Shown: piece by piece, positions 11,862 through 29,395 of the stretch
How the letters are laid out: every line of letters begins with the position of its first letter
Numbering within the stretch: position 1 is the first letter of the stretch
From: a bacterium
Lineage (GTDB): Bacteria; Pseudomonadota; Gammaproteobacteria; Nevskiales; OUC007
Assembly (NCBI GenBank): GCA_018222345.1
Contig: JAAFAL010000019.1
Span: forward strand, 1 to 33,115
Reading direction: 5' to 3'
Length of the DNA: 33,115 nucleotides
Position numbers and translations under genes: made by a program
The notes under the pieces: model-generated
Seen by the model: only the letters and a program-made list of their open reading frames with translations
Database searches by the model: none
What the model was told of the DNA's origin: nothing

Positions 11862-11936
11862 CCTGCGCCGTCCGTGCTGGTCCGACTTGTTTGGGCCAGC
11901 GCAGCTTTTTTCACACACCACACAACAGATATCGCC

Positions 11937-12728
11937 ATGTTGCGCACCGCTAAGCTGATCGGTTTGTTGGCGATTTTGCTCGCAGGGCAGGCCAGCGCGT
12001 CGGGTATTCGGGTCGCGCCACTGCGCTTAGTGATCGACGACACAGCCCGCACCGCCAGCTTGACCATCAGTAATTTGAGTACCACAGCCACCGCGGTTGA
12101 GGTCAATCTGGTGAGTTGGCGCCAGGACGCCTCCGGCAGCGATGTCTATGTGCCGTCCTCCGATTTGTTCTTTGCGCCGCCGATTGTTCGCGTGCCGGCG
12201 CGCGGCGATACCACCTTGCGTTTCAGAGCCAAGGCCTTGCCACCTGAAGGCACCGAGGCGACTTACCGTGTGTATGTGCGCGAATTGCCGTCGCAAGTTG
12301 AAAGCCGCGCCGGTGCGAAGATTTCACTGCGTTTTGGCATCCCGGTATTTTTGTACAACGGCGAGCGGCCGGCGCCTGAACTGCACTGGTCGGCCAAACG
12401 CGCAGATGACCAGCTTGACATCAGCTTGACGAATTATGGGCAGGCGCACTTGCGCATCAATGCCTTGCACGCCTATCCGGCGGATGCCGACATCAATGCC
12501 ATCCGCGGCACCGAACCGCTGGCCACGGCGCGCTACAACGATGCCGGGGCGGGTTACTTGATGCCGGGCACGACCCACAACTGGGCCTTACCCATGGCTG
12601 ACGTGCCCGATGACGCCTGGGTGTTGATTGCCACCGACGACACCGCTGGCCAGGCCGCCAAGGGCATGCGAGGCAATGGCCACTTGTGGCTGCGCCTTGG
12701 CGCGTTGTTGCGCGGTTCCGGCAACTGA
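11937..12728 (+). CDS. Periplasmic pilus-assembly chaperone (CsuC/FimC type)
   Basis: Pilus chaperones donate a beta strand to pilin subunits in the periplasm and deliver them to the usher. This one has 263 residues: signal peptide (1-22, ending GQASA), then the first Ig-like domain beginning GIRVAPLRLVIDD. It contains TLTISNLS-like SLTISNLSTTATAVEVNLVSW and the motif FFAPPIVRVPARGDTTLRFRA region with R/K positions that anchor subunit C-termini. YRVYVRELP and GIPVFL end domain 1. Domain 2 is shorter and closes with LRLG. ATG 11937 fits the signal peptide, while the longer open frame from 11874 does not. It sits 75 bases after the pilin and 6 bases before the usher. Confidence 0.9.
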   Translation: MLRTAKLIGLLAILLAGQASASGIRVAPLRLVIDDTARTASLTISNLSTTATAVEVNLVSWRQDASGSDVYVPSSDLFFAPPIVRVPARGDTTLRFRAKALPPEGTEATYRVYVRELPSQVESRAGAKISLRFGIPVFLYNGERPAPELHWSAKRADDQLDISLTNYGQAHLRINALHAYPADADINAIRGTEPLATARYNDAGAGYLMPGTTHNWALPMADVPDDAWVLIATDDTAGQAAKGMRGNGHLWLRLGALLRGSGN

Positions 12729-12734
12729 GCAGCC

Positions 12735-15191
12735 ATGATGTGCAGGGCGCTGCTTGGCCTGATTGCCCTGGTGTTCTGTGCCGGCTCAGCTAGCGCCGCC
12801 CAGTTGCCCAAGCAACCGGACGACGCGGTTTTGGTGGTGCCGCCGGTCGCGCAGGGCGACGAGCCAGGCTGCGATGGCCAGCCGATGATTCCGCGGCTGC
12901 TACGCGCCATCGTCAATGCGTCGGACAGCCAGATCGATTTCGTCTTTTACCAACGGCCTTGCGGCGCACTGTTGGCATCGGTCGATACGCTCAAATCGCT
13001 GCGTATCCGCATTGAAGGCCGGCCCACGGTCGGAATCGATGGCGAGTTGTGGGTCAACCTCAACGCCTATCCCAAGCTCAGCTATGAGCTCGACCTCAGT
13101 CGCCAGCGCGTGCTGTTGGAGGGCGAACCGGACGTGTTCTACCCAACCCTGGTTGACTTCCAGCCCGAGGAACCCGATGTCGCGCCCACCGCCAACCCCG
13201 GCATTGCGCTGAATTATGGCGTCGGCGCGTCGGGCCGGCCAGACGACGGCAGCACGCAGTACTCGGCGTTTCTCAATGCTGCGGCGTTCGCCCGGCCCGG
13301 CGTGATTGTGTCGAATTGGGTGTGGGGGCATGCCGAGGGCCGCACTAGCACGCTGCGGCTACAAACCACCGCGATTCGCGACATGCCGCAACGCATCGCT
13401 GCGCTGCGCATCGGCGATGTGCGCACGCCGTCGGGCGGGTTTGGCGGCTCCTTGCCGGTGGCGGGCGTGCAATACGCCACCAACTTTGGCACCCGGCCAT
13501 ATTTGCAGATCACGCCGACGGCGCTGCTCAGCGCCGCAACCCGCCGCGATGCCGGCTTGCAGATTCGCGTTGACCCGTTTGGTGATGGCAGCGCGCAGGC
13601 GGTGCCGGTGGCCGGCTCGCAAGTGCCTTATGGGCCGGTGGAGGTCGTCAACCTGCCGGTTTATCAGAACGGCCGTTATCGCTTGGTGCTGCGCGACAGT
13701 GCCGGCAATTTGGTGGAGTCATCGCAGGCGAATTTTTTTGCTCGTGGTTTGCTGCGCCAGGGTTTGAGCGAGTTCGACTACGCCATCGGAGCGCGCCGGC
13801 CTTCGATTGCCGACAACCGCTACACCACACCCGCTGCCGGCTTCGACCACCGCTACGGCCTGACCCGTTGGCTGACGCTGGAAGGCCATGTGGAAGCCGA
13901 CCGCGACGTTCAAGTTGCCGGGTTCGGTGGGCGGTTTCGGGTGCCATGGGTGGGTGTTGCGGCGGCAACCGTGGCGGCGTCGCGCAGCGATGACAGCAGC
14001 AGCGACAGCTTTGCCAGCGTTTCGCTCGAGAACCGCTACCAGTCGTTTTCCTACGCCGGCCTGGCGCAGTGCAATGGCCGCGACTTCACCACCATCTCCG
14101 GCCCGCGCGGGCAAACTGCCTGCAGCGCGTTCGCCTCCTTGGGCGCGCCGCTGCCGTGGGGCGACCGCATCAGCACGGTTCTGGGCCAGCGCATCCCGCG
14201 GGACGGCGCCAAGCAGCGCAATTACGGCGTCAATTACGTCACCCATATTCCGCGTATCTCACTCACCGTGTCGGCCGGCGTGTCGTGGTTTGAGACCGCC
14301 GGCGACAGCACCTGGAGCGCGCGTGCCAACATCAACATGCCGTTGGGCGCGCCGTTTCGCCTGGCTGGCAAGCAGCCGCGCAGGCGGCTTCGCTTCCGGC
14401 CTTCGACCACACAAGTCGCCGTCGATGCCACGCAGAGCGAGTTCGCCGACGCGCGCGTACGGCTGCGTAGCGTGACGCGCGGCAACTTCGGTGGGCGCAC
14501 CCTGGCCTTGGGCGCTTCAACCACCTTGGCAGGGCCGAACATCAATACGCTGTCGGCCGGCTGGAGCGGGCGCAAGGTCAATGCAGCGGTCAACGTCACC
14601 GAGAGCGACGGCGACGAGTTGCTGTCGGCCAGCGCCAGCAGCGGCTTGGTCTTTATCGATCGGTCCCTGTTCACCACGCGGCCTGTGCTCAACAGTTTTG
14701 CGCTGGTTGATCTGGGCGAGGACAACGACGGCGTGTTCGTCAATGGTGCGCGCGCCAACAGCCGTGGCAAAGCCTTGGTGACGCCGTTGATCCCGTATGT
14801 GCCGAACAACTTGCGCATCGATGTGACCGACCTGCCGCTCAGCGCCGCTCAGCGCGCGCAAACTATTGCCGTAACACCGCGATTCCGCAGCGGTGTAGTG
14901 CTACGGCCAACGCTGCCGCGCTACCAGGACGCCATCATCAGCATTCAGTTGGCTGCCGCCGATGGCAGCCGCAAGCCATTGCCGTATCGTGCTTACGTGC
15001 AGGTTGCCGCGCCGGCCGAGGTGTCGCCAGTTGGCAGCGACGGCGCCGTGTATGTGACCGGCGAGCAAGGGCCGATGCGCCTCGACGTGTTTGTTGATGG
15101 CGGCCAATGCCGTGTTGATTTCGAATTGCCCGACGGGCCTGAGGACGACAATATTCTGGCCTTGGGCCCTTATCTGTGTGAGCCGTCATGA
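12735..15191 (+). CDS. Outer-membrane usher of archaic chaperone-usher pilus
   Basis: Ushers are outer-membrane barrels that receive chaperone-subunit complexes and secrete the growing pilus. This protein has 818 residues, the length of CsuD-type ushers. A signal peptide (1-21, ending GSASA) precedes an N-terminal subunit-binding domain (about 25-140), then beta-strand-rich barrel sequence (about 155-650). Family-like blocks are LRIGDVRTP and GGSLPVAGVQYATNF early in the barrel, PLPWGDRIS midway, and DGVFVNG ... LIPYVPNNLRIDVTDLPL (about 660-705) at the C-terminal plug or carboxyl domains. ATG 12735 and ATG 12738 are adjacent possible starts. It ends in an ATGA overlap with the last pilus gene. 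Confidence 0.92.
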   Translation: MMCRALLGLIALVFCAGSASAAQLPKQPDDAVLVVPPVAQGDEPGCDGQPMIPRLLRAIVNASDSQIDFVFYQRPCGALLASVDTLKSLRIRIEGRPTVGIDGELWVNLNAYPKLSYELDLSRQRVLLEGEPDVFYPTLVDFQPEEPDVAPTANPGIALNYGVGASGRPDDGSTQYSAFLNAAAFARPGVIVSNWVWGHAEGRTSTLRLQTTAIRDMPQRIAALRIGDVRTPSGGFGGSLPVAGVQYATNFGTRPYLQITPTALLSAATRRDAGLQIRVDPFGDGSAQAVPVAGSQVPYGPVEVVNLPVYQNGRYRLVLRDSAGNLVESSQANFFARGLLRQGLSEFDYAIGARRPSIADNRYTTPAAGFDHRYGLTRWLTLEGHVEADRDVQVAGFGGRFRVPWVGVAAATVAASRSDDSSSDSFASVSLENRYQSFSYAGLAQCNGRDFTTISGPRGQTACSAFASLGAPLPWGDRISTVLGQRIPRDGAKQRNYGVNYVTHIPRISLTVSAGVSWFETAGDSTWSARANINMPLGAPFRLAGKQPRRRLRFRPSTTQVAVDATQSEFADARVRLRSVTRGNFGGRTLALGASTTLAGPNINTLSAGWSGRKVNAAVNVTESDGDELLSASASSGLVFIDRSLFTTRPVLNSFALVDLGEDNDGVFVNGARANSRGKALVTPLIPYVPNNLRIDVTDLPLSAAQRAQTIAVTPRFRSGVVLRPTLPRYQDAIISIQLAAADGSRKPLPYRAYVQVAAPAEVSPVGSDGAVYVTGEQGPMRLDVFVDGGQCRVDFELPDGPEDDNILALGPYLCEPS

Positions 15192-15697
15192 TGAACAGCT
15201 TGGTGCGAGTGTTTGGCCGCATGGGTGGCTTGAGCAGCGGCGGTGTTTTGCTGCTGGCAGCGCTGCTGTGGGCGCAACCCGCCGCGGCGCAGGCCGATAG
15301 CTGTGCGTTCCGCGCGGCATCCGCCACCTTGGTCGATTTCAGTGTTTACTCGGGCGGCTTGTTGCCGGCTGACTCCACCGGCGTGATTCCGCTGACCTGC
15401 ACGCCGGCCATCGCCTTGGGCACAGTGGCTTACACGGTCTCGATCAGCACCGGCTCGTCAGGCAGTTTTTCACCGCGCACGCTGTTGCGCATGGGCGGTG
15501 GCGGCACGCTGAATTACGACATCTATATCGACCCGACACGATTGATCGTGTGGGGCGATGGGTCGCTGGGCACGGGTACGGTTTCTGGCCTGTGCAGTGG
15601 TGATTGCGACGTGCTGGCCTACGGCCGAATACCCGGCGCGCAGGTTGTCCCAAGTGGTAGCTACGCCGACGATGTGCTGATTACGGTTGATTTCTGA
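15188..15697 (+). CDS. SCPU-domain protein, short terminal subunit of the pilus operon
   Basis: Last gene of the pilus operon. It encodes 169 residues: a long signal peptide (about 1-35, ending PAAAQ) and one spore-coat-U domain with CAFRAASATLVDFSVY starting at Cys39, PLTCTPA, a LCSGDCDVLAYGRIPG block and the ending SGSYADDVLITVDF. Position after the usher corresponds to csuE, the tip adhesin of Csu pili, but CsuE has two domains and is roughly twice as long. This protein has only the pilin-like domain. ATG 15188 overlaps the usher stop (ATGA), and ATG 15191 is the alternative. Confidence 0.83.
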   Translation: MMNSLVRVFGRMGGLSSGGVLLLAALLWAQPAAAQADSCAFRAASATLVDFSVYSGGLLPADSTGVIPLTCTPAIALGTVAYTVSISTGSSGSFSPRTLLRMGGGGTLNYDIYIDPTRLIVWGDGSLGTGTVSGLCSGDCDVLAYGRIPGAQVVPSGSYADDVLITVDF

Positions 15698-20435: not shown

Positions 20436-21029
20436 ATGCCCAAAGCCGCCCAATATGACGCTCAAAACCTGATCTGGATCGACCTGGAAATGACCGGGCT
20501 CGACCCGGACAGCGACGTCATCATTGAGATCGCCACGTTGGTCACCGACAAGTACCTGCACGAACTCGCCGTTGGCCCCGTGCTGGCCGTCAGCCAGCCG
20601 CACAGTTACCTGGAAGGCATGGACGAGTGGTGCACCACGCACCACACGCGCTCGGGGCTGGTGCAGCGCGTGATCGATAGCACCGTTGACGCCGCCGAGG
20701 CCGAGCGGCAAACGCTGGAGTTCTTGCGGGGCTGGGTGCCCGAGGGCGTGTCCCCCATGGCCGGCAACAGCATTTGCCAAGACCGGCGCTTTCTGGTGCG
20801 CGGCATGCCGGAGCTCGCCAAATACTTCCACTACCGCAATCTCGACGTCAGTACGCTCAAGGAACTGGCGGCGCGCTGGGCGCCCGACATTGCTGCTGGT
20901 TACCGGAAGGAGTCGGAACATCTTGCGCTGGCCGACATTCGCGACTCGGTGGACGAACTACGTTACTACCGCCAACACTTCATTCGCATGGACGGGCCGG
21001 CGCCGCGGGAAGACTCCGAAGACGGCTAG
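20436..21029 (+). CDS. orn: Oligoribonuclease
   Basis: Orn degrades RNA dinucleotides and pGpG to mononucleotides; in pseudomonads it finishes turnover of cyclic-di-GMP. It has 197 residues and the DEDDh exonuclease motifs: Asp16 and Glu18 in [10 protein letters not shown], Asp116 in [10 protein letters not shown], then His162 and Asp167 in [11 protein letters not shown]. The start at ATG 20436 gives the conserved short lead before [11 protein letters not shown]. It is divergent from phhB. Its TAG stop lies in the palindrome CTAG (21026-21029), which is also the stop of the convergent SDR gene. Confidence 0.98.
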
Positions 21030-21799
21030 CTCAAGTAGCCACCATCAACGGTAATGCAGCTACCGGTCGTATAAGAGGCAGCATCCGACGCCAGATACAA
21101 CACCGCAGGCGCAATCTCCGACGGGTCGGCCACGCGCTGCATGGGAATCAGCGGCAGGAAGCGCTTGAGCAGGTCTTCGTTTTGCGTCAGCGCTGATGCG
21201 AACTTGGTCTCGGTCAGGCCCGGCAGCACCGCGTTCACGCGGATGCCTAGCGGCGCGCATTCCTTGGCGAAGGCCTGCGTGGTGTTGATCACCGCAGCCT
21301 TGGTGACCGAGTAGATGCTCTGGAACTGGCCAGGCTTCACGCCGTTGATGCTGGCCGTGTTCACAATCGCGCCGCCGCCGTTTTTCTTCATCAGGCGGCC
21401 GGCCAATTGGCTCATGACGAAGTAGCCGCGCAGGTTGACTTCGATAGTCTTGTCGATGGCGTCCAGCGGGGTGTCGAGCACATGGCCAAAGAATGGGTTG
21501 GCAGCAGCGTTGTTGACGAGGATGTCGAGCTTGCCGAATTTTTCGGCAATGCCGTCAATCAGCCGTGTCATGTCGTCGATGTCACCGGCGTGGCAGGGCA
21601 TCACATGGGCCTTGCCGCCGTCTGCGACGATGGCGTCGGCGACCACTTGGCAGCCTTCGGCCTTGCGGCTGGACACGATCACCTCGGCGCCATGTGCGGC
21701 GAACAGCTTGGCGATGGCTTCGCCGATGCCACGGCTGGCGCCGGTCACCAGGGCGATTTTGCCGTCTAGGTTGAATACGTTTTTCAGGTCGGTGCTCAT
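21026..21799 (-). CDS. Short-chain dehydrogenase/reductase (SDR)
   Basis: A classical SDR of 257 residues that probably uses NAD(P) to oxidise or reduce a hydroxyl/keto group; substrate unknown. The nucleotide-binding motif TGASRGIG (19-26), NNAAANP (96-102) and the catalytic Ser150, Tyr163 and Lys167 are all present. The segment after them, [16 protein letters not shown], is typical. ATG 21799 is chosen because GGAG lies six bases upstream; an upstream TTG at 21811 has no such site. It follows the APH-like kinase on the same strand after a 115-base gap carrying hairpins, and kinase, phosphatase and SDR probably act in one pathway. Confidence 0.93.
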
Positions 21800-21841
21800 G
21801 GGGTACTCCAAAGATTGAATGCCATGCCGGTGAAGACGGGC

Positions 21842-21898
21842 ATCCAGTTGCTACGTTGCGGCTGGCTGGTGCAACTGGATTCCCGCCTGTGCGGGAAT
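21842..21898. repeat. Inverted repeat plus dRS3-like element
   Basis: ATCCAGTTGC (21842-21851) is repeated inverted as GCAACTGGAT (21871-21880). It overlaps ATTCCC-N8-GGGAAT at 21879-21898, which is exactly the form of the neisserial dRS3 repeat; similar repeats occur in many proteobacteria. It lies between the kinase and SDR genes and could end or weaken transcription of the SDR from the upstream promoter, or serve as an insertion target. Confidence 0.6.
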
Positions 21899-21914
21899 GA
21901 CGGAACGTGGTGAG

Positions 21915-22985
21915 TCAGAGGTCAGATGCGGAAATAATTTCATCAGTGCGCTGAATCAGCAGCCCCACCATTTGCCCAAACGCCGCAAAGCGCTTGTTGG
22001 TGGTTTGGCCGTGGTAGTAACGGTAGTAGATCTGCTGCGCAATCACCGCCAGCCGGAACAGGCCGAAGGTGTAATAGAAGTCGAAGTGATCCATGTTCCG
22101 GCCCGTCAGCTCGGCGTAATGGGCAATCACTTCGTCTCGGGTGAACATGCCGGGCAGATGGGTGGGCATCATGCGCGCCAATTGCATGTAGGGCGGGTCG
22201 CCTCCTTCTACCCAGTAGGCCAGGGTACTTCCCAAGTCCATTAGCGGGTCGCCCAGCGTGGTCATTTCCCAGTCCAGCACGCCGATCACTTCCAGCGGGT
22301 TGTTGGGGTCGAGCACCACATTGTCGAGCTTGTAGTCGTTGTGGATGATGCCGGGGTTGGCGCCGTCGGCCGGTTGCTTGGCCTCCAGCCATGCCATGAC
22401 TTGGGGGTTCTCAGGCACATCACCAGTGCGCGCTTTCGCGTAGCGGCCATTCCAGCCACTGACTTGCCGCGCCACGTAGCCTTCAGGTCTGCCAAGTTCA
22501 GCCAGCCCGGCTTTGGCGTAGTCCACTTGGTGCAGTGTGGCCAGCGTGCCAATCAAGTTGCGACACAGTGCGCCAGCATCCTCCGCGTTTAGTTCCATAC
22601 CCTTGGGCAGGTCGCGGCGCACGATAATGCCACTGAGTTTTTCCATCACGTAGAACTCGGCGCCGATCACGCTGTGGTCGTCGCAGAACACCAATGGCTT
22701 CGGTGCGGGGGCAAAGTGGCCCTGCAGATGGCTGAGCACTTTGTACTCGCGTGCCATGTCGTGGCCGCTTTTGGGTTTGGTGCCGCTGGGCGGGCGGCGC
22801 AGAATCATCTCGCGGTCACCCATGGTCAGTTGGTAGGTGAGGTTGGAGGCACCACCGGCGAACTGGCGGACTGCAAGCTCGCCGCTCAGCCCTTCGATAT
22901 GCTGTTGCAGATAAGCGGCAAGCGCCTCGGTGTCCAGTGCATCGGCCTCGCGTACATCGCCGGCTTGGTCTAGCAGGTCGCTCAT
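21915..22985 (-). CDS. APH-fold phosphotransferase (ACAD10/11 N-terminal-like kinase)
   Basis: A 356-residue aminoglycoside-phosphotransferase-fold kinase. The Brenner motif H-N-D-Y-K-L-D-N (215-222) and the metal-binding Asp238 in VLDWEMTTLGDPLMDLG are complete, so it is probably active. GGASNLTYQL (44-53) forms the nucleotide loop, and ILRRPP and REYKVL supply the Lys/Glu pair region. This subfamily resembles the kinase domain of ACAD10/11 and LvaA of Pseudomonas putida, which phosphorylates 4-hydroxyacyl-CoA. It is not a drug-resistance enzyme in character. GGAG precedes ATG 22985. A histidine phosphatase gene lies upstream and an SDR downstream. Confidence 0.9.
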   Translation of the reverse strand: MSDLLDQAGDVREADALDTEALAAYLQQHIEGLSGELAVRQFAGGASNLTYQLTMGDREMILRRPPSGTKPKSGHDMAREYKVLSHLQGHFAPAPKPLVFCDDHSVIGAEFYVMEKLSGIIVRRDLPKGMELNAEDAGALCRNLIGTLATLHQVDYAKAGLAELGRPEGYVARQVSGWNGRYAKARTGDVPENPQVMAWLEAKQPADGANPGIIHNDYKLDNVVLDPNNPLEVIGVLDWEMTTLGDPLMDLGSTLAYWVEGGDPPYMQLARMMPTHLPGMFTRDEVIAHYAELTGRNMDHFDFYYTFGLFRLAVIAQQIYYRYYHGQTTNKRFAAFGQMVGLLIQRTDEIISASDL

Positions 22986-23013
22986 GGGTGTCTCCGTACT
23001 TGTCTTGGTCGTT

Positions 23014-23033
23014 CTAGGGCGAGCGGGCCCTAG
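23014..23033. other. Hairpin across the phosphatase stop codon
   Basis: CTAGGGC (23014-23020) pairs with GCCCTAG (23027-23033) around GAGCGG. It spans the stop codon of the histidine phosphatase gene (23030-23032) and lies 29 bases before the kinase start. No T-run follows on the - strand, so it is more likely an mRNA stability or attenuation element than a terminator. Confidence 0.45.
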
Positions 23034-23749
23034 CGGTGGGTCAGCAGGCCGGCGGGCTCGTCGGCAGCGGCATCAGCCTGGCGCAGGTAGCTCACGTCGT
23101 TGAAGCCTAGCAGCGCCGCCTGCACGCCTTCATCTTTGCGGCGCAGGCGCAGCTCGGTAATCGAGGCGTTGTAGATGCGCCAATTCAGATGAAATGTCGC
23201 CGTGTCGGTCAAGCCCAACGCATGACGCACGCAAACGGAGATCGGCCCGCCAGAGGTGACCACGGCAACGCTTGCGCCATCATCAAATTGCTCAGTAACT
23301 TGCGCCAGGCCATCGGTGACGCGGGCGCAAAACTGGGTCCAGGTTTCCGTCAATGGAGCGACGGCGTCGGTGGCCGGAATCCAATGCGCGATGACCGCTT
23401 CGAACGCGTGTTGGAAACTTTTGCGGTCGGCGAAAATGTCACGCGGATTGCGCGGCAAGCTGGGGTCGTCGCGCATGGCCAGTGGCAGATAGGTTTGGAA
23501 CAGCGCCTCGGCATCAAACTCGTCGAACTGCGGCAATATGACCGGCGCCGGCGCGTCAATCAGCCCCGCTGCAGTGTCAATCTGCCGCTGCATGCGGCCG
23601 GTTACGACGCCGTCGAGGTGCCGACCGATCGCGGCAAAATGCTCGCCTAGGTGCTGCGCCTGCGTGTGGCCCAAGGCCGACAGTTTGTCGTAGTTGCTGC
23701 TGCCGAACGAGGCTTGGCCGTGGCGAACCAGAAACAGTTTAATGGCCAT
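23030..23749 (-). CDS. Histidine phosphatase superfamily protein (second His replaced)
   Basis: A 239-residue phosphoglycerate-mutase-like protein. The phospho-accepting motif L-V-R-H-G (His10) is intact, Arg53 in TGRMQRQIDTA and Glu77 in FDEFD fit the pocket. In the second motif, where most members have (T/S)HGG, it has VVTSGGPIS, with Ser166 in the place of the usual catalytic His. I recall the same TSGG form from relatives encoded next to APH-like kinases, so it may be a subfamily trait rather than damage. Substrate unknown; the adjacent kinase suggests opposing or sequential phosphate transfer in acyl-CoA metabolism. Start ATG 23749 is directly before the conserved KLFLVRHGQ. Confidence 0.85.
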   Translation of the reverse strand: MAIKLFLVRHGQASFGSSNYDKLSALGHTQAQHLGEHFAAIGRHLDGVVTGRMQRQIDTAAGLIDAPAPVILPQFDEFDAEALFQTYLPLAMRDDPSLPRNPRDIFADRKSFQHAFEAVIAHWIPATDAVAPLTETWTQFCARVTDGLAQVTEQFDDGASVAVVTSGGPISVCVRHALGLTDTATFHLNWRIYNASITELRLRRKDEGVQAALLGFNDVSYLRQADAAADEPAGLLTHR

Positions 23750-23806: not shown

Positions 23807-23848
23807 TAGTTGATGAACGCTAGTCGATGAGCACTAGTCAATGAATAC
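23807..23848. repeat. Three tandem imperfect 14-base repeats
   Basis: TAGTTGATGAACGC, TAGTCGATGAGCAC and TAGTCAATGAATAC follow one another without gaps. The last unit (23835-23848) contains the end of the 362-residue coding sequence (Phe-Ile-Asp-stop on the - strand). The other two lie just past the stop, each again able to read as TTCATCAACTAA- or CTCATCGACTAG-like ends. Probably replication slippage at the 3' end. Confidence 0.6.
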
Positions 23849-24922
23849 CGGCCCTTCGATGTCCAGCGTCTGGGTGCGGCCCTGGGCTGATTGCAAGCCG
23901 GGCTTGAGTTGCACCAAATACCGCCCGGCAGGCAGCGCGCTACTTTTCAGCAAGGCTGGATTGTTGGCCGGCGACCAGTCGGTAGCGACCGCTTCGCCCT
24001 TGTCGTTCATCACCGAGATGAAGTCGCCAAAGCTTTGGCCAGACTTGACCGCGCCGTCGAACAACACGCCGATGCCTTTGCCGCTGCCGCCAGCGAAGGT
24101 GCCGGCGTAGAGCACTTTCAGTGCGCCGCTGGATTGTTCCGTGGCTGGCGGCCACCACGGCACCACTGCGGTTGCAGGGCGCGGCGCTTTGCCGCTGACA
24201 ACGGGTTCGGGTTCATTCGGGTCGCTGCGCGCGGGCGCCGAGGCGGTTTGCGTGCTGGTGCTGCTGTCGTCTGCGGCGTAATCGTCGCTTGAATAGCTAT
24301 CGCTGCCATAGTCGTCAGACGCGTAATCATCGGTGGCGTAGTCGTCCGAGGCGTAGGCATCGTCAGCGCTGGCCGAGTCGGTTCCGGCGGAGCCGTAGTC
24401 ATCGCTGGAGTCGTCGTCAGAAGCGGCCGAACTGCTGTCGGTGTCGTATGCGCTATCGCTGGAGGCCGACTCGGTGTCGTCGCTACCGTAGTCGTAACTT
24501 CCACTGTCGTAGCCATCACTGCTGTACGCGTCGCTGCCACTGGCATCTGCGGTTTCAGTGTCGCCGCTGCTGGCGCTGTCGTTGCCATAGCTGCCGTAGT
24601 CAGTTGTTTCGGCACTGGCGTAGCTGTCGCCGTAAAGCGCTGCGCCGCCACTGGCTTGGGCGACGTCCAAAGCGGTTTGGTAGCCGACTTCGCGGGCAAC
24701 TTTGGCGCCTTCTTCGCGGCCAATGCGCTCGGCATCCGCTTTGCTCAGGCCTTGTGATTCGCTGCTGGCTTGTTGTTTGGCATTGTCGTCACCACCCAAC
24801 ATGGAGGTCACGGCAAAGTAGGTGGCGCCGCCCACAGCGGCAATCACGATCAAGGTGATCAGCATGCCGGCAATGCCGCCGTGCATGCGCGAGGGCAGTT
24901 TCAGATCGCTAGGTGTAGTCAT
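23834..24922 (-). CDS. Unrecognised membrane-anchored protein with Ser/Asp/Tyr-rich tract
   Basis: I do not recognise this 362-residue protein. It has a short cytoplasmic start, one membrane segment (about 17-38, ending GGATYFAVTSMLGG) and a helical piece (58-90, KADAERIGREEGAK...). A strongly acidic Ser/Asp/Tyr/Ala tract follows (about 98-225), including six near-perfect pentapeptides ASDDY/ATDDY/GSDSY/SSDDY at 191-220. A Pro-rich hinge leads to a C-terminal domain of about 105 residues that looks beta-rich (ALKVLYAGTFAGG; GRYLVQLKPG). The orientation is probably C-terminus in the periplasm. The membrane segment resembles that of the next gene upstream. The acidic tract could bind cations or be a flexible spacer; this is inference. 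Confidence 0.75.
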   Translation of the reverse strand: MTTPSDLKLPSRMHGGIAGMLITLIVIAAVGGATYFAVTSMLGGDDNAKQQASSESQGLSKADAERIGREEGAKVAREVGYQTALDVAQASGGAALYGDSYASAETTDYGSYGNDSASSGDTETADASGSDAYSSDGYDSGSYDYGSDDTESASSDSAYDTDSSSAASDDDSSDDYGSAGTDSASADDAYASDDYATDDYASDDYGSDSYSSDDYAADDSSTSTQTASAPARSDPNEPEPVVSGKAPRPATAVVPWWPPATEQSSGALKVLYAGTFAGGSGKGIGVLFDGAVKSGQSFGDFISVMNDKGEAVATDWSPANNPALLKSSALPAGRYLVQLKPGLQSAQGRTQTLDIEGPVFID

Positions 24923-24930
24923 GGCTGGGC

Positions 24931-25350
24931 TTATCCGAGTTGATCTTCGATGACCTTGCGCGCGGTCTCGGCGGCGACACGGCGTGCTTCGGTAATGGCG
25001 GCGGCGCGGGCGACAGCCTCCAGGTCAGCGTCGTTGGCGGCGCTGGTGCTGTTTGGCGTGTAGGTTTCGCCATCCAATGCAGCTTGCGCGGCAGCCTCGG
25101 CAGCTTCGCGTGCTGCGCCCTCGGCGGCGGCGCGCGCGGCGCTACGCAGGGCGCGCTCTTCGCTGCTCATTGTGCTTCCTGACGCCGTCAGGCCACTACT
25201 TGCATTGCTTGAGAACACTTCCTCGGCAGTTGGGCCGTCGTCAGTTTCTTCGACTTTTTCGCCGCCGAAGAATTTCTCCATTGCGAAATAGGTGCCTGCG
25301 GTGATGGCTACCACCACCAGCAGCATGAAAATGGTCGATTTACGCAGCAT
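24931..25350 (-). CDS. Unrecognised small membrane-anchored Ala-rich protein
   Basis: A 139-residue protein with one N-terminal membrane segment (about 7-23, ending TAGTYFAMEKFFGGE), an acidic linker (30-60) and Ala/Glu/Arg-rich helices (63-93 and 108-138) likely to form a coiled coil. I do not recognise a family. The TYFA...GG-acid pattern after the membrane segment is shared with the 362-residue protein, and both have AxxxAREx-like helices, which suggests a common origin of the anchor part. Start ATG 25350 has AGGGGGAA six to ten bases upstream. Eight bases separate it from the next gene, so the two form an operon. Confidence 0.75.
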   Translation of the reverse strand: MLRKSTIFMLLVVVAITAGTYFAMEKFFGGEKVEETDDGPTAEEVFSSNASSGLTASGSTMSSEERALRSAARAAAEGAAREAAEAAAQAALDGETYTPNSTSAANDADLEAVARAAAITEARRVAAETARKVIEDQLG

Positions 25351-25578
25351 AGTTCCCCCTGAACTGATCCCAGATCGGTTTAAGTGCCCGATGATTTGTT
25401 GTTTGTAGTCGCGCGGATCGTCCCAATATCAACCACATAGCAGTGCGAGTCAATCCGCGCGCGAGGCGCAGCATGGCGATCACACTTTTAGTCTATGCGA
25501 ATGCGGCCTATCATGCGCTGCAACATTGCACCTGCGCAGCGCGCAGTGCCCGAATCCCCACGACTGACACGTAACTTT
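25351..25578. promoter_or_regulatory. Divergent control region with long-spaced inverted repeat
   Basis: A 228-base gap separates the membrane-protein pair (- strand) from the FabG-type gene (+ strand). CGCGCGGAT (25410-25418) is repeated inverted as ATCCGCGCG (25453-25461), with 34 bases between. The arrangement would suit a dimeric regulator binding two sites, or a loop in a leader RNA. No clear -35/-10 boxes were identified. Confidence 0.35.
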
Positions 25579-27015
25579 ATGTCTGATTTTTATCTGGAAC
25601 TCACGCAGTCGCCGGTTGGCCGCCGCGTGGTCTCATCCTTGGGTTTGCCAACCCCGCCGTCGCTGGCGCGCAACGACGCCGCCTGGCCGGAGCAACCGCT
25701 GACCGACGCAACCGTAGCGCTGGGCGCCGGCCCTGGTGGGCGCGTTACCACGCAGTTGGCTGATGCCGTCACCGGCATGGGTGGCGCGGTCGTCACTGTC
25801 GAGGGCTTCGATAATGGCTCTGACGTGCCAGCCAGCGGCACCGCAACTGCGGGCAGCGACGATACCCCTGGCACCAAGCTGCATGCTGCCGTGTTCGACG
25901 CCACTGGGCTGTCGTCACCGGCCGAGCTGCGCGCCTTGTATGACTTTTACCACCCGATCGCGCGCCAAGTGCAGGCGAATGGCCGCTTGCTTGTGGTCGG
26001 CACGCCGCCGGAATCGGCCAAAGGCGTGGCCGCCAAAACCGCCGCGCGCGCGCTCGAAGGTTTTGTGCGCAGCCTGGGCAAGGAATTTGGCAAGAAGGGC
26101 ATTACCGCAATGTTGATTCTGGTCGAGCCCGGCGCCGAGGCCCATCTGGCCGGGCCTGTGCGTTTCGCACTCAGCAAACCGTCGGCGTTTGTGACTGGCC
26201 AGACCATGGTCGTCAGCAACACCGCCAAAGGCGAGGCGGCGACAACATGGGCTGCACCGTTGGCTGGCAAAGTCGCGTTGGTCACCGGCGCCGCGCGCGG
26301 CATTGGCGAAGCGATTGCCGTGGCGCTGGCCCGTGAAGGCGCGCAAGTGATCTGCCTCGACCGGCCCGGCGAAGAAGAGGCCTTGGCTGAAGTGACGGCC
26401 AACTTGGCGACACCGGGCGGCAAGCCATTGGCGGTGGATATCACTTCGGAGCATGCGCCCAGCCGCATCGCCGCCTTCGTTACCGAGCAATTCAGCGGTG
26501 TCGATATCGTCGTCCACAACGCCGGCGTGACGCGCGACAAAACCTTGGCGCGCATGAGCGAACAATGGTGGGACATGGTGCTGGACATCAACCTGGGCTC
26601 GATCCTCGAGATTAACGACGCCCTGACCACAGCGCCCAAAGGCAAAAAAGCCCCGCTGCGCGATGGCGGCCGGGTGATATGCGTGTCGTCCATCGGCGGC
26701 ATTGCAGGCAACTTTGGCCAGACCAACTACGCGGCCTCCAAGGCTGGCGTGATTGGCTATGTCGCGGCCCTGTCGGAAACGCTGGCCAAGCGCGGTATTA
26801 CTGTCAATGCCGCTGCACCGGGCTTTATCGAAACCCGCATGACGGCGGCCATGCCGTTTGGTGTGCGCGAAGCCGGCCGGCGCCTCAACGCCTTGTCGCA
26901 AGGTGGTATGCCCGAGGATGTGGCCGAGTTGATCACCTTCTTCGCCACGCCGGGTGCGCAGGGCGTTACCGGGCAAACCGTGCGCGTGTGCGGCCAGAAC
27001 TTGGTTGGAGCATAG
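25579..27015 (+). CDS. Two-domain 3-oxoacyl-ACP/CoA reductase, FabG4 type
   Basis: A 478-residue protein with an N-terminal degenerate Rossmann-like domain (about 40-215) and a C-terminal SDR domain. The latter has TGAARGIG (236-243), HNAGVTRDKTL (313-323), the serine pair in VSSIGG (369-374), Tyr384 and Lys388. This arrangement is that of high-molecular-weight FabG proteins such as mycobacterial FabG4, which reduce 3-oxoacyl-CoA or -ACP with NAD(P)H. ATG 25579 begins MSDFYLELTQSPVGR, the usual start of proteobacterial members; upstream in-frame codons to 25495 look non-coding. In many relatives it is next to thiolase and MaoC genes; here it stands alone before pyrD. Confidence 0.9.
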   Translation: MSDFYLELTQSPVGRRVVSSLGLPTPPSLARNDAAWPEQPLTDATVALGAGPGGRVTTQLADAVTGMGGAVVTVEGFDNGSDVPASGTATAGSDDTPGTKLHAAVFDATGLSSPAELRALYDFYHPIARQVQANGRLLVVGTPPESAKGVAAKTAARALEGFVRSLGKEFGKKGITAMLILVEPGAEAHLAGPVRFALSKPSAFVTGQTMVVSNTAKGEAATTWAAPLAGKVALVTGAARGIGEAIAVALAREGAQVICLDRPGEEEALAEVTANLATPGGKPLAVDITSEHAPSRIAAFVTEQFSGVDIVVHNAGVTRDKTLARMSEQWWDMVLDINLGSILEINDALTTAPKGKKAPLRDGGRVICVSSIGGIAGNFGQTNYAASKAGVIGYVAALSETLAKRGITVNAAAPGFIETRMTAAMPFGVREAGRRLNALSQGGMPEDVAELITFFATPGAQGVTGQTVRVCGQNLVGA

Positions 27016-28074: not shown

Positions 28075-28195
28075 ATGTGCATTATCATCCGCACACTCGC
28101 CAAAGTTGTGTTGCAGTTTTGGCCTACATGCGCACAATAGCGCGCAGCGCCTCGGGGACAACGTGGGCGCTCACATTCAATCCGGACGAATGATT

Positions 28196-29395
28196 ATGAA
28201 GGGACTTCTCAACCGCGCTGCCTTGGTCAGTGGCCTTGTTGCCTGCGCAGCCGTAACAACCGCACAGGCAGTCAGTGCCCCCGGCTACGACATCCCGTAT
28301 GTCGAACTGGGCGGCGAGTTTGTGTCGGTAGATGACATCCGCGCCAATGACGACGGCATCGGTGGCCGCCTGCGCTTGGGCTTCCCCATTGGCATTGCCA
28401 ACAGCGCCATCGAACTGAGCATTTACGACAATGTGTTCGAGCGCGACCTAGACGGCGATGACGACTACCAGAGCGGTTTTTTCGTCAATTATGTGTATGA
28501 CCTCGGCGGCCTGCTCAATACGCGCGTGCGCCCCTTCGTACTCGGTGGTCTGGGCTTTGCCGAAGACGACATCCTCGGCAACAACGACACTCACCTGGGC
28601 CTCGACGCTGGCTTGGGCGCGCTGGTGCCACTGGGCTTGCCGTTTGCCAAGGGGCTGAGCCTGCGGGCCGATGCGCGCTACCAATACCAGTTCAACAAAG
28701 AACATTATCCCGGTGAAGACTCGGTGGCCGATGTACGCTTTTTTGTTGGCGCGCACATTCCCTTGTCGGCTTATTTTGAAGCCAAGGGCAAGCCGCAGAA
28801 AACACGCGACTGCGAGTTGGCCGTGGTTGACCCGACCACTGGCCGCACCGACTGCGTGAGCGATTCCGACCGCGACGGCGTGATTGATGGCCGCGACAAA
28901 TGCCCCGGCACGCGCCGCGGCGCAAGCGTCAACGCCAATGGCTGTGTGGCCTCCGGGCCTGACAGCGATGGCGACGGCGTGCCGGACAACTTCGATCGCT
29001 GCCCCGAGACTGTGGTTGGCGCTGCTGTGGATGGCAACGGTTGCCCAGTGCGGCAAATCGTCGTGCTCAATGGTGTGAACTTCAACACCGGCTCGGCAGC
29101 GCTCACCGATGGCGCCAAACAAGTGTTGGATGGGGTCGTTGAAACCCTGCGCAGCCAGCGCGCATCGCTGATCGAAATTGCCGGCCACACCGACTCGCGT
29201 GGCGACGCCCAAAGCAACTTGGCGCTATCGCAAAAACGTGCCGAGTCGGTGCGTGACTACCTGATCGAGCGTGGCATCACCGCTAGCCGGCTGACCGCGC
29301 GTGGCTATGGCGAGTATGAGCCGATTGCCAGCAACGACACCGCCGGTGGCCGCGAAGAGAACCGCCGGGTCGAGTTCCGGGTGGTTGCCAACTAG
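28196..29395 (+). CDS. OmpA-family outer-membrane protein
   Basis: A 399-residue envelope protein. A signal peptide (about 1-25, ending TAQA) is followed by a beta-barrel-like domain (about 30-200, with alternating strands such as YVELGGEFVSVDD and RPFVLGGLGF). Two TSP3-type calcium repeats follow, DSDRDGVIDGRDKCPGT and DSDGDGVPDNFDRCPET, then an OmpA peptidoglycan-binding domain (about 290-399) with GHTDSRGDAQSN, LSQKRAESVRDYL and ENRRVEFRV. It anchors the outer membrane to the wall. ATG 28196 gives a clean signal peptide, while ATG 28190 two codons upstream is equally in frame. A strong hairpin follows its stop. Confidence 0.92.
   Translation: MKGLLNRAALVSGLVACAAVTTAQAVSAPGYDIPYVELGGEFVSVDDIRANDDGIGGRLRLGFPIGIANSAIELSIYDNVFERDLDGDDDYQSGFFVNYVYDLGGLLNTRVRPFVLGGLGFAEDDILGNNDTHLGLDAGLGALVPLGLPFAKGLSLRADARYQYQFNKEHYPGEDSVADVRFFVGAHIPLSAYFEAKGKPQKTRDCELAVVDPTTGRTDCVSDSDRDGVIDGRDKCPGTRRGASVNANGCVASGPDSDGDGVPDNFDRCPETVVGAAVDGNGCPVRQIVVLNGVNFNTGSAALTDGAKQVLDGVVETLRSQRASLIEIAGHTDSRGDAQSNLALSQKRAESVRDYLIERGITASRLTARGYGEYEPIASNDTAGGREENRRVEFRVVAN

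Follow-up and report, generated by a model that had tools for sequence, protein, structure and literature searches.

The window, the whole stretch of 33,115 nucleotides that was analysed, carries two adjacent minus-strand genes separated by 8 bases, as the original prediction had described. The upstream gene, P0002, is an ORF of 139 aa (24931-25350), and the downstream gene, P0001, is an ORF of 362 aa (23834-24922) whose start at 24922 is backed by homologs that open with MT...(R)MRGG. Hydropathy analysis gives each protein one strong hydrophobic segment, at the N-terminus, in line with the single membrane segment originally proposed for each. The proposed common pattern TYFA-x(6-7)-GG-acid is literally present in both, as TYFAVTSMLGGDD and TYFAMEKFFGGEK. 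The two genes have no detected intrinsic terminator separating them, and the sole promoter-like site lies upstream of P0002, with the number of such sites equal to the chance expectation. Searched singly against Pfam and NCBIfam, neither P0001 nor P0002 gave a significant match.

P0002, the small partner protein, combines an N-terminal membrane anchor with Ala-rich helices, and its single-sequence model has four helices. The membrane segment predicted from hydropathy (about residues 6-25; 25276-25335, minus strand) is positive on its N side and falls within a modelled helix of residues 2-28. It is followed by the motif GPTAEEVFS (residues 39-47; 25210-25236, minus strand), which bears the (D/E)xVF(G/S/A) signature found after the anchor in single-gene members of the family described below. 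Helix 1 (residues 63-92; 25075-25164, minus strand) appears in the single-sequence model and has AAxx tetrads, with a 90-degree periodicity that none of 1000 shuffles matched in strength. Helix 2 (residues 102-138; 24937-25047, minus strand) is also modelled and is the conserved partner helix of the RMARIVAEQAA... type, matched at E 1.5e-14 by a profile whose seed includes the window sequence itself.

P0001 is built of a membrane anchor, a helix, a long S/D/Y linker and a C-terminal bMG1-like domain. Its membrane segment (about residues 17-37; 24812-24874, minus strand) is predicted from hydropathy and from the layout of its relatives. The helix LSKADAERIGREEGAKVAREVGYQTALDVAQA (residues 58-91; 24650-24751, minus strand) is of the EARKIAEEVGRKVA type, which co-occurs with the partner gene. 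The S/D/Y/A tract (residues 96-226; 24245-24637, minus strand) is recognized by composition as a low-complexity spacer, and the Ig-like, bMG1-type domain (residues 250-362; 23837-24175, minus strand) is assigned from profile comparisons. In the helices of the pair, residues recur in tetrads at close to 90 degrees per residue, and P0002 helix 1 shows this most strongly.

The order-wide family and its C-terminal domain

Protein searches found relatives of P0001 in 45 of 100 relative genomes. A profile of the C-terminal domain, with 109 positions and built from an alignment of 30 rows (A1), detected stand-alone proteins with an anchor, a linker and a bMG1-type domain in 63 of the 85 genomes of the order. 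They are present in 63 of the 68 genomes outside family f6 and in none of its 17 genomes. The layout is constant in members: the anchor is N-terminal, a low-complexity linker follows, and the domain forms the extreme C-terminus. P0001 shares this anchor and the WW, G, GxW, N, GRY and GPV positions of the terminal domain that define the family. In samples of 274 genomes from the class and 299 from the phylum, the profile gave 29 matches outside the order, all in ORFs of 724-1788 aa and 28 of them in ORFs of at least 1500 aa; the stand-alone form thus turned up in this order alone. The size of the long ORFs is as expected of alpha-2-macroglobulins (A2Ms). A genome may carry up to six copies of the bMG1 protein. 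The six copies in one genome (G046, L118-L123) lie in six different contexts, and two other genomes (G022, G057) have four each.

Because the larger protein is found across nearly the whole order, its role in the cell envelope is probably a general one. In 58 of 78 members the anchor has the higher net charge on its N side. In the paralogs L135 and L149, a lipobox-like LGGC or LVGC followed by NRHQAHDEDED takes the place of a membrane helix, and these two are possibly lipoproteins; both observations favour a periplasmic location of the domain.

The C-terminal beta-like domain of the original prediction is real, and it is conserved in the alignment of relatives. The WW directly ahead of the domain is invariant, as are G25, G60, W67, G84, Y86, G108 and V110, and F39, N72, R85, G99 and P109 are nearly so; WW, GxW and GRY are the invariant motifs of the P0001 domain, which is predicted to be all-beta (single-sequence model poor, pLDDT 49). 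When members are scanned singly, 25 of 30 match Pfam bMG1 (PF17970), counted at E values up to 1 and with a best E of 1.9e-9, and 13 of 30 match Big_5 (PF13205), with a best E of 3.4e-5. One full-length relative lies above the bMG1 gathering cut-off (26.8 versus 26.4 bits). In the PDB, the family profile matches bacterial A2Ms (4zjg, 4u4j, 4u48, 5a42, 4ziq and 4rtd; E 8e-6 to 1e-4), including the solved A2Ms of E. coli and Salmonella. Aligned by hhalign with the N-terminal domains of A2M-sized proteins, the family domain scores 98.5% (E 2.8e-15), and a profile limited to P0001 and the three relatives closest to it scores 93% (E 3e-7); this comparison set was gathered with the family profile itself, and the independent evidence is that from Pfam and the PDB. 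P0001 by itself gave no significant match in Pfam or the PDB, bMG1 included. On these profile comparisons, the C-terminal domain of P0001 is predicted to be a diverged bMG1/Big_5-type Ig-like domain. Big_5 belongs to the same Ig-like fold class, but fewer members match it than bMG1, and with poorer scores. Most Big_5 proteins are surface proteins with several domains. Weak matches to Por_Secre_tail, a T9SS sorting domain, in 7 of 30 members, versus 25 for bMG1, were taken as Ig-fold cross-matches.

The original prediction knew no family of this layout; the larger gene in fact sits in an order-wide family, and a known-family match exists for the C-terminal domain only, solely via relatives. In Pfam and NCBIfam no model covers the whole protein, and the open-access literature, searched for the Pfam accession and for stand-alone MG1 proteins, yielded no account of such a family. 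P0001 belongs to a conserved, apparently undescribed family of envelope proteins that uses a known domain as a building block and seems to have P0002 as a helper; the pair, too, is apparently undescribed. The first domain of bacterial A2Ms, on this evidence, is able to exist alone. The family usually occupies one and the same position in the chromosome, and an envelope protein so nearly universal in, and specific to, the order would be a good knock-out target for learning what these bacteria add to the standard Gram-negative envelope.

The partner gene and the divided anchor

The canonical place of the family is conserved across families of the order, with divergent FabG, RibA, PyrD and OmpA genes on one side and a histidine phosphatase, APH-type kinase or SDR gene directly downstream; neighbouring genes were called by a simple GC-position score and, except for some in the window, named by eye. 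In the window, the FabG-type short-chain dehydrogenase, which is divergent and the commonest neighbour of the family, lies at 25495-27015 (plus strand), and the OmpA-family outer-membrane protein of the same conserved block at 28193-29395 (plus strand, start not fixed).

A P0002-like gene lies directly upstream of the bMG1 gene in 23 of 59 informative canonical loci. It is present in family f1 (4/4), family f3 (1/1, a weak profile match) and two genera of family f2, g3 (4/4, counting loci with sequence available) and g11 (14/16, with at least two losses of the partner inside this genus), and was not found at the canonical loci of the remaining genera. Relatives therefore keep the pair, as a genome-context search proposed earlier was meant to reveal, and the chance proximity envisaged as an alternative does not hold. 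Three P0002 matches in family f6 resemble ZipA when their sequences are judged by eye, and cover the membrane region only; the ZipA C-terminal domain was not found in P0002, and the anchor profile of the family gives ZipA N-termini low scores.

Every P0002-like protein has a hydrophobic segment at its N-terminus and, at its C-terminus, a helix of RMARIVAEQAAITAEATAR type, and where the partner exists the bMG1 protein carries the helix EARKIAEEVGRKVATQVA. Across the 59 canonical loci, the EARKIAEEVGRKVA-type helix and the partner gene occur together in 23, the helix occurs alone in one (L055), the partner never occurs alone, and both are missing from 35. On a tree of FabG, PyrD and RibA, the two traits, helix and partner, need 5 and 4 changes, and among independent pairs on the tree three changed the same way, none the opposite way and one was unchanged (p 0.25). 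These data are consistent with the co-occurrence but underpowered, with only about 4-5 independent changes. The recurrence of the pair in several lineages and the co-occurrence of partner and helix fit the joint function originally suggested; that this joint work extends across the envelope, as was also suggested, we infer.

Evidence that the two anchors are paralogous, another element of the original prediction, came from a profile built on the N-termini of single-gene members, a stretch that covers the anchor and (D/E)xVF(G/S/A). This profile scores P0002 at 48.6 bits (3e-15), the g3 partners at 41-44 bits and P0001 at 19.1 bits, compared with 11.8 and 5.6 bits for ZipA controls. These scores indicate that, in lineages with the pair, the ancestral anchor is on the small protein and the domain on the large one.

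Proposed function and its alternatives

The best explanation, to which we give a probability of about one half, is that the pair forms an order-specific, two-subunit envelope tether of the inner membrane that presents an Ig-like domain in the periplasm. P0001 would be anchored in the inner membrane, its N-terminus on the inner side, and a flexible linker of about 130-200 residues would allow its C-terminal domain to extend across the periplasm and dock on a partner, whose most plausible site is the peptidoglycan or the outer membrane. P0002 would be a helper, a paralog in which the ancestral anchor and the VF motif persist and the domain is lost, and its tetrad-repeat helices may pack against the matching helix of P0001. 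The data establish the family, the relationship of the domain, the paralogy of the anchors, the conserved pairing and the joint occurrence of helix and partner gene; cellular topology, packing of the two proteins and the tether role are inferred. Inner-membrane proteins of the TonB, TolA and DedD type likewise have an N-terminal anchor, a long low-complexity or helical periplasmic linker and a small C-terminal docking domain. The likeness of P0001 to these proteins is in layout alone, since the C-terminal domain differs and no motor or SPOR context was seen.

The best lead for a docking partner would be an OmpA-type protein. Outside the canonical block, an OmpA-type gene neighbours 4 of 18 paralog loci and 0 of 40 control regions (p 0.007), in a test that was chosen after the canonical block had been seen and that involves four loci only, three of them in one genus. 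A doubtful extension of the tether model is that it links the inner membrane specifically to OmpA-type outer-membrane proteins, the anchor-MG1 part of an A2M having become detached, its anchor split onto a second protein, and the whole multiplied to as many as six paralogs per genome. As a separate observation, one paralog with a seeming signal peptide follows an OmpA-type gene and an apparent DUF1302/DUF1329/YCF48/MMPL lipid-transport cluster, named by eye (L065, 8397-15259).

The genes around the canonical place allow a similarly doubtful alternative, in which the protein acts in the envelope with a link to the metabolism of fatty acids or acyl-CoA, and is regulated and works together with the genes around it for FabG, SDR, APH-type kinase and histidine phosphatase. 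Most canonical loci have the gene divergent from FabG, many have a gene for a histidine phosphatase, SDR or APH as its immediate downstream neighbour, sometimes a few bases off, and some paralogs adjoin CoA-transferase, CitE or MaoC genes. However, paralog loci are not enriched in lipid-metabolism genes (7/18 versus 10/40 control regions, p 0.22; some of the queries came from those loci), and gene order can stay conserved without shared function. In the window, SDR, APH-type kinase and histidine phosphatase genes form a cluster at 21026-23749 (minus strand), which we take to resemble clusters for hydroxy-acyl catabolism. Three paralogs (L058, L122, L136) lie at the end of operons with genes resembling, by eye, CoA transferase, CitE-like lyase, MaoC-like hydratase and acyl-CoA dehydrogenase. 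Elsewhere in the window (11874-15694, plus strand) are chaperone-usher pilus genes of a Csu-like kind with a spore-coat-U type subunit (PapD_N, Usher/PapC_C, SCPU).

The relationship of the domain to bacterial A2Ms raises a further alternative, which we consider unlikely, that the family is a remnant or helper of A2M defence whose anchor-MG1 part docks and recruits an A2M or its penicillin-binding partner. The family domain is homologous at the profile level to the membrane-proximal MG1 (PF17970) of type I bacterial A2Ms (YfhM/ECAM and Salmonella A2M), which likewise follows an N-terminal anchor and faces the periplasm, and the order of anchor and MG1 corresponds to the first part of those proteins. 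There is also a parallel in Pseudomonas aeruginosa, where the membrane-spanning protein MagB, reported to have a membrane helix, works with the macroglobulin-type protein MagD and holds it at the inner membrane (PMC5764988). The likeness here is one of arrangement, and the window's genome has no A2M. Unlike bacterial A2Ms, which are multi-domain proteins of about 1,500-2,000 aa with a thioester domain, P0001 has 362 aa and lacks the bait region, the thioester and every other A2M domain; in the family the single domain is C-terminal, after a long disordered linker, and adds an invariant WW ahead of the domain and a C-terminal GPVYV. A profile search found no PF00207 in the window's own genome. 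The model occurs in 42 of the 85 genomes of the order, and 23 of the 63 family-bearing genomes, the window's among them, have no A2M match, which weakens the A2M-helper reading. No A2M or PBP1C was recognized by eye beside any examined member. P0001 is neither an A2M nor dependent on one. The order's own A2Ms, mostly of 1,860-2,100 aa, gave no bMG1 match with the family profile except one on a contig of genome G007, unlike A2M-sized proteins elsewhere; the lone domain and the order's large A2Ms may have separated long ago.

It is quite improbable that the two proteins share no function, P0002 being a decaying duplicate of the P0001 anchor. The shared anchor and the many genera without P0002 would fit decay, but P0002-like genes keep an intact frame, the anchor and the conserved C-terminal helix in f1 and f2 (g3, g11), the match in f3 being weaker. 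They also co-occur with the P0001 helix.

In the two-subunit tether, the S/D/Y tract of P0001 would serve as the spacer. It measures 131 residues (S35, D33, A19, Y16, T11, G11), close to the roughly 130 originally described, and it holds five (A/G/S)(S/T)DDY pentapeptides in place of the six that had been counted, one at residue 172 and four inside a five-unit run at 191-215 (ASDDY-ATDDY-ASDDY-GSDSY-SSDDY). Five exceeds chance, with a mean of 0.18 in composition-preserving shuffles and 0 of 5000 reaching five; the copies use different codons, so the repeat is no recent expansion at the DNA level. At the same place, relatives have mostly Ala/Pro/Lys/Glu-rich linkers or other types, and the S/D/Y tract is peculiar to the window's genome. 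Because relatives differ in linker composition, with disorder and length alone conserved, the tract is best read as a variable spacer and not a conserved ion binder; the cation-binding role first suggested for it is unlikely, and a conserved sorting feature was rejected for the same reason. A search of genome contigs with P0001 gave two matching loci only, both to the repeat tract and in Firmicutes, which were treated as low-complexity matches. Least probable of all is that the tract, as a cation-binding or phase-separating acidic-aromatic element, is the working part, next to which the beta domain would be no more than a fold or sorting element, as might be suggested by the excess of repeat units and a partly similar acidic D/S-W linker in two members of another family, given that most relatives' linkers are Ala/Pro/Lys-rich and lack aromatics and that the C-terminal domain is conserved in all relatives. 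Those two members belong to genus g9 of family f4 (L050, 8156-9106, minus strand, and L156), and the acidic part of their linker, EDWSSDTDSWDTQSDNWDSTQEHWDD, is a possible parallel to the S/D/Y tract.
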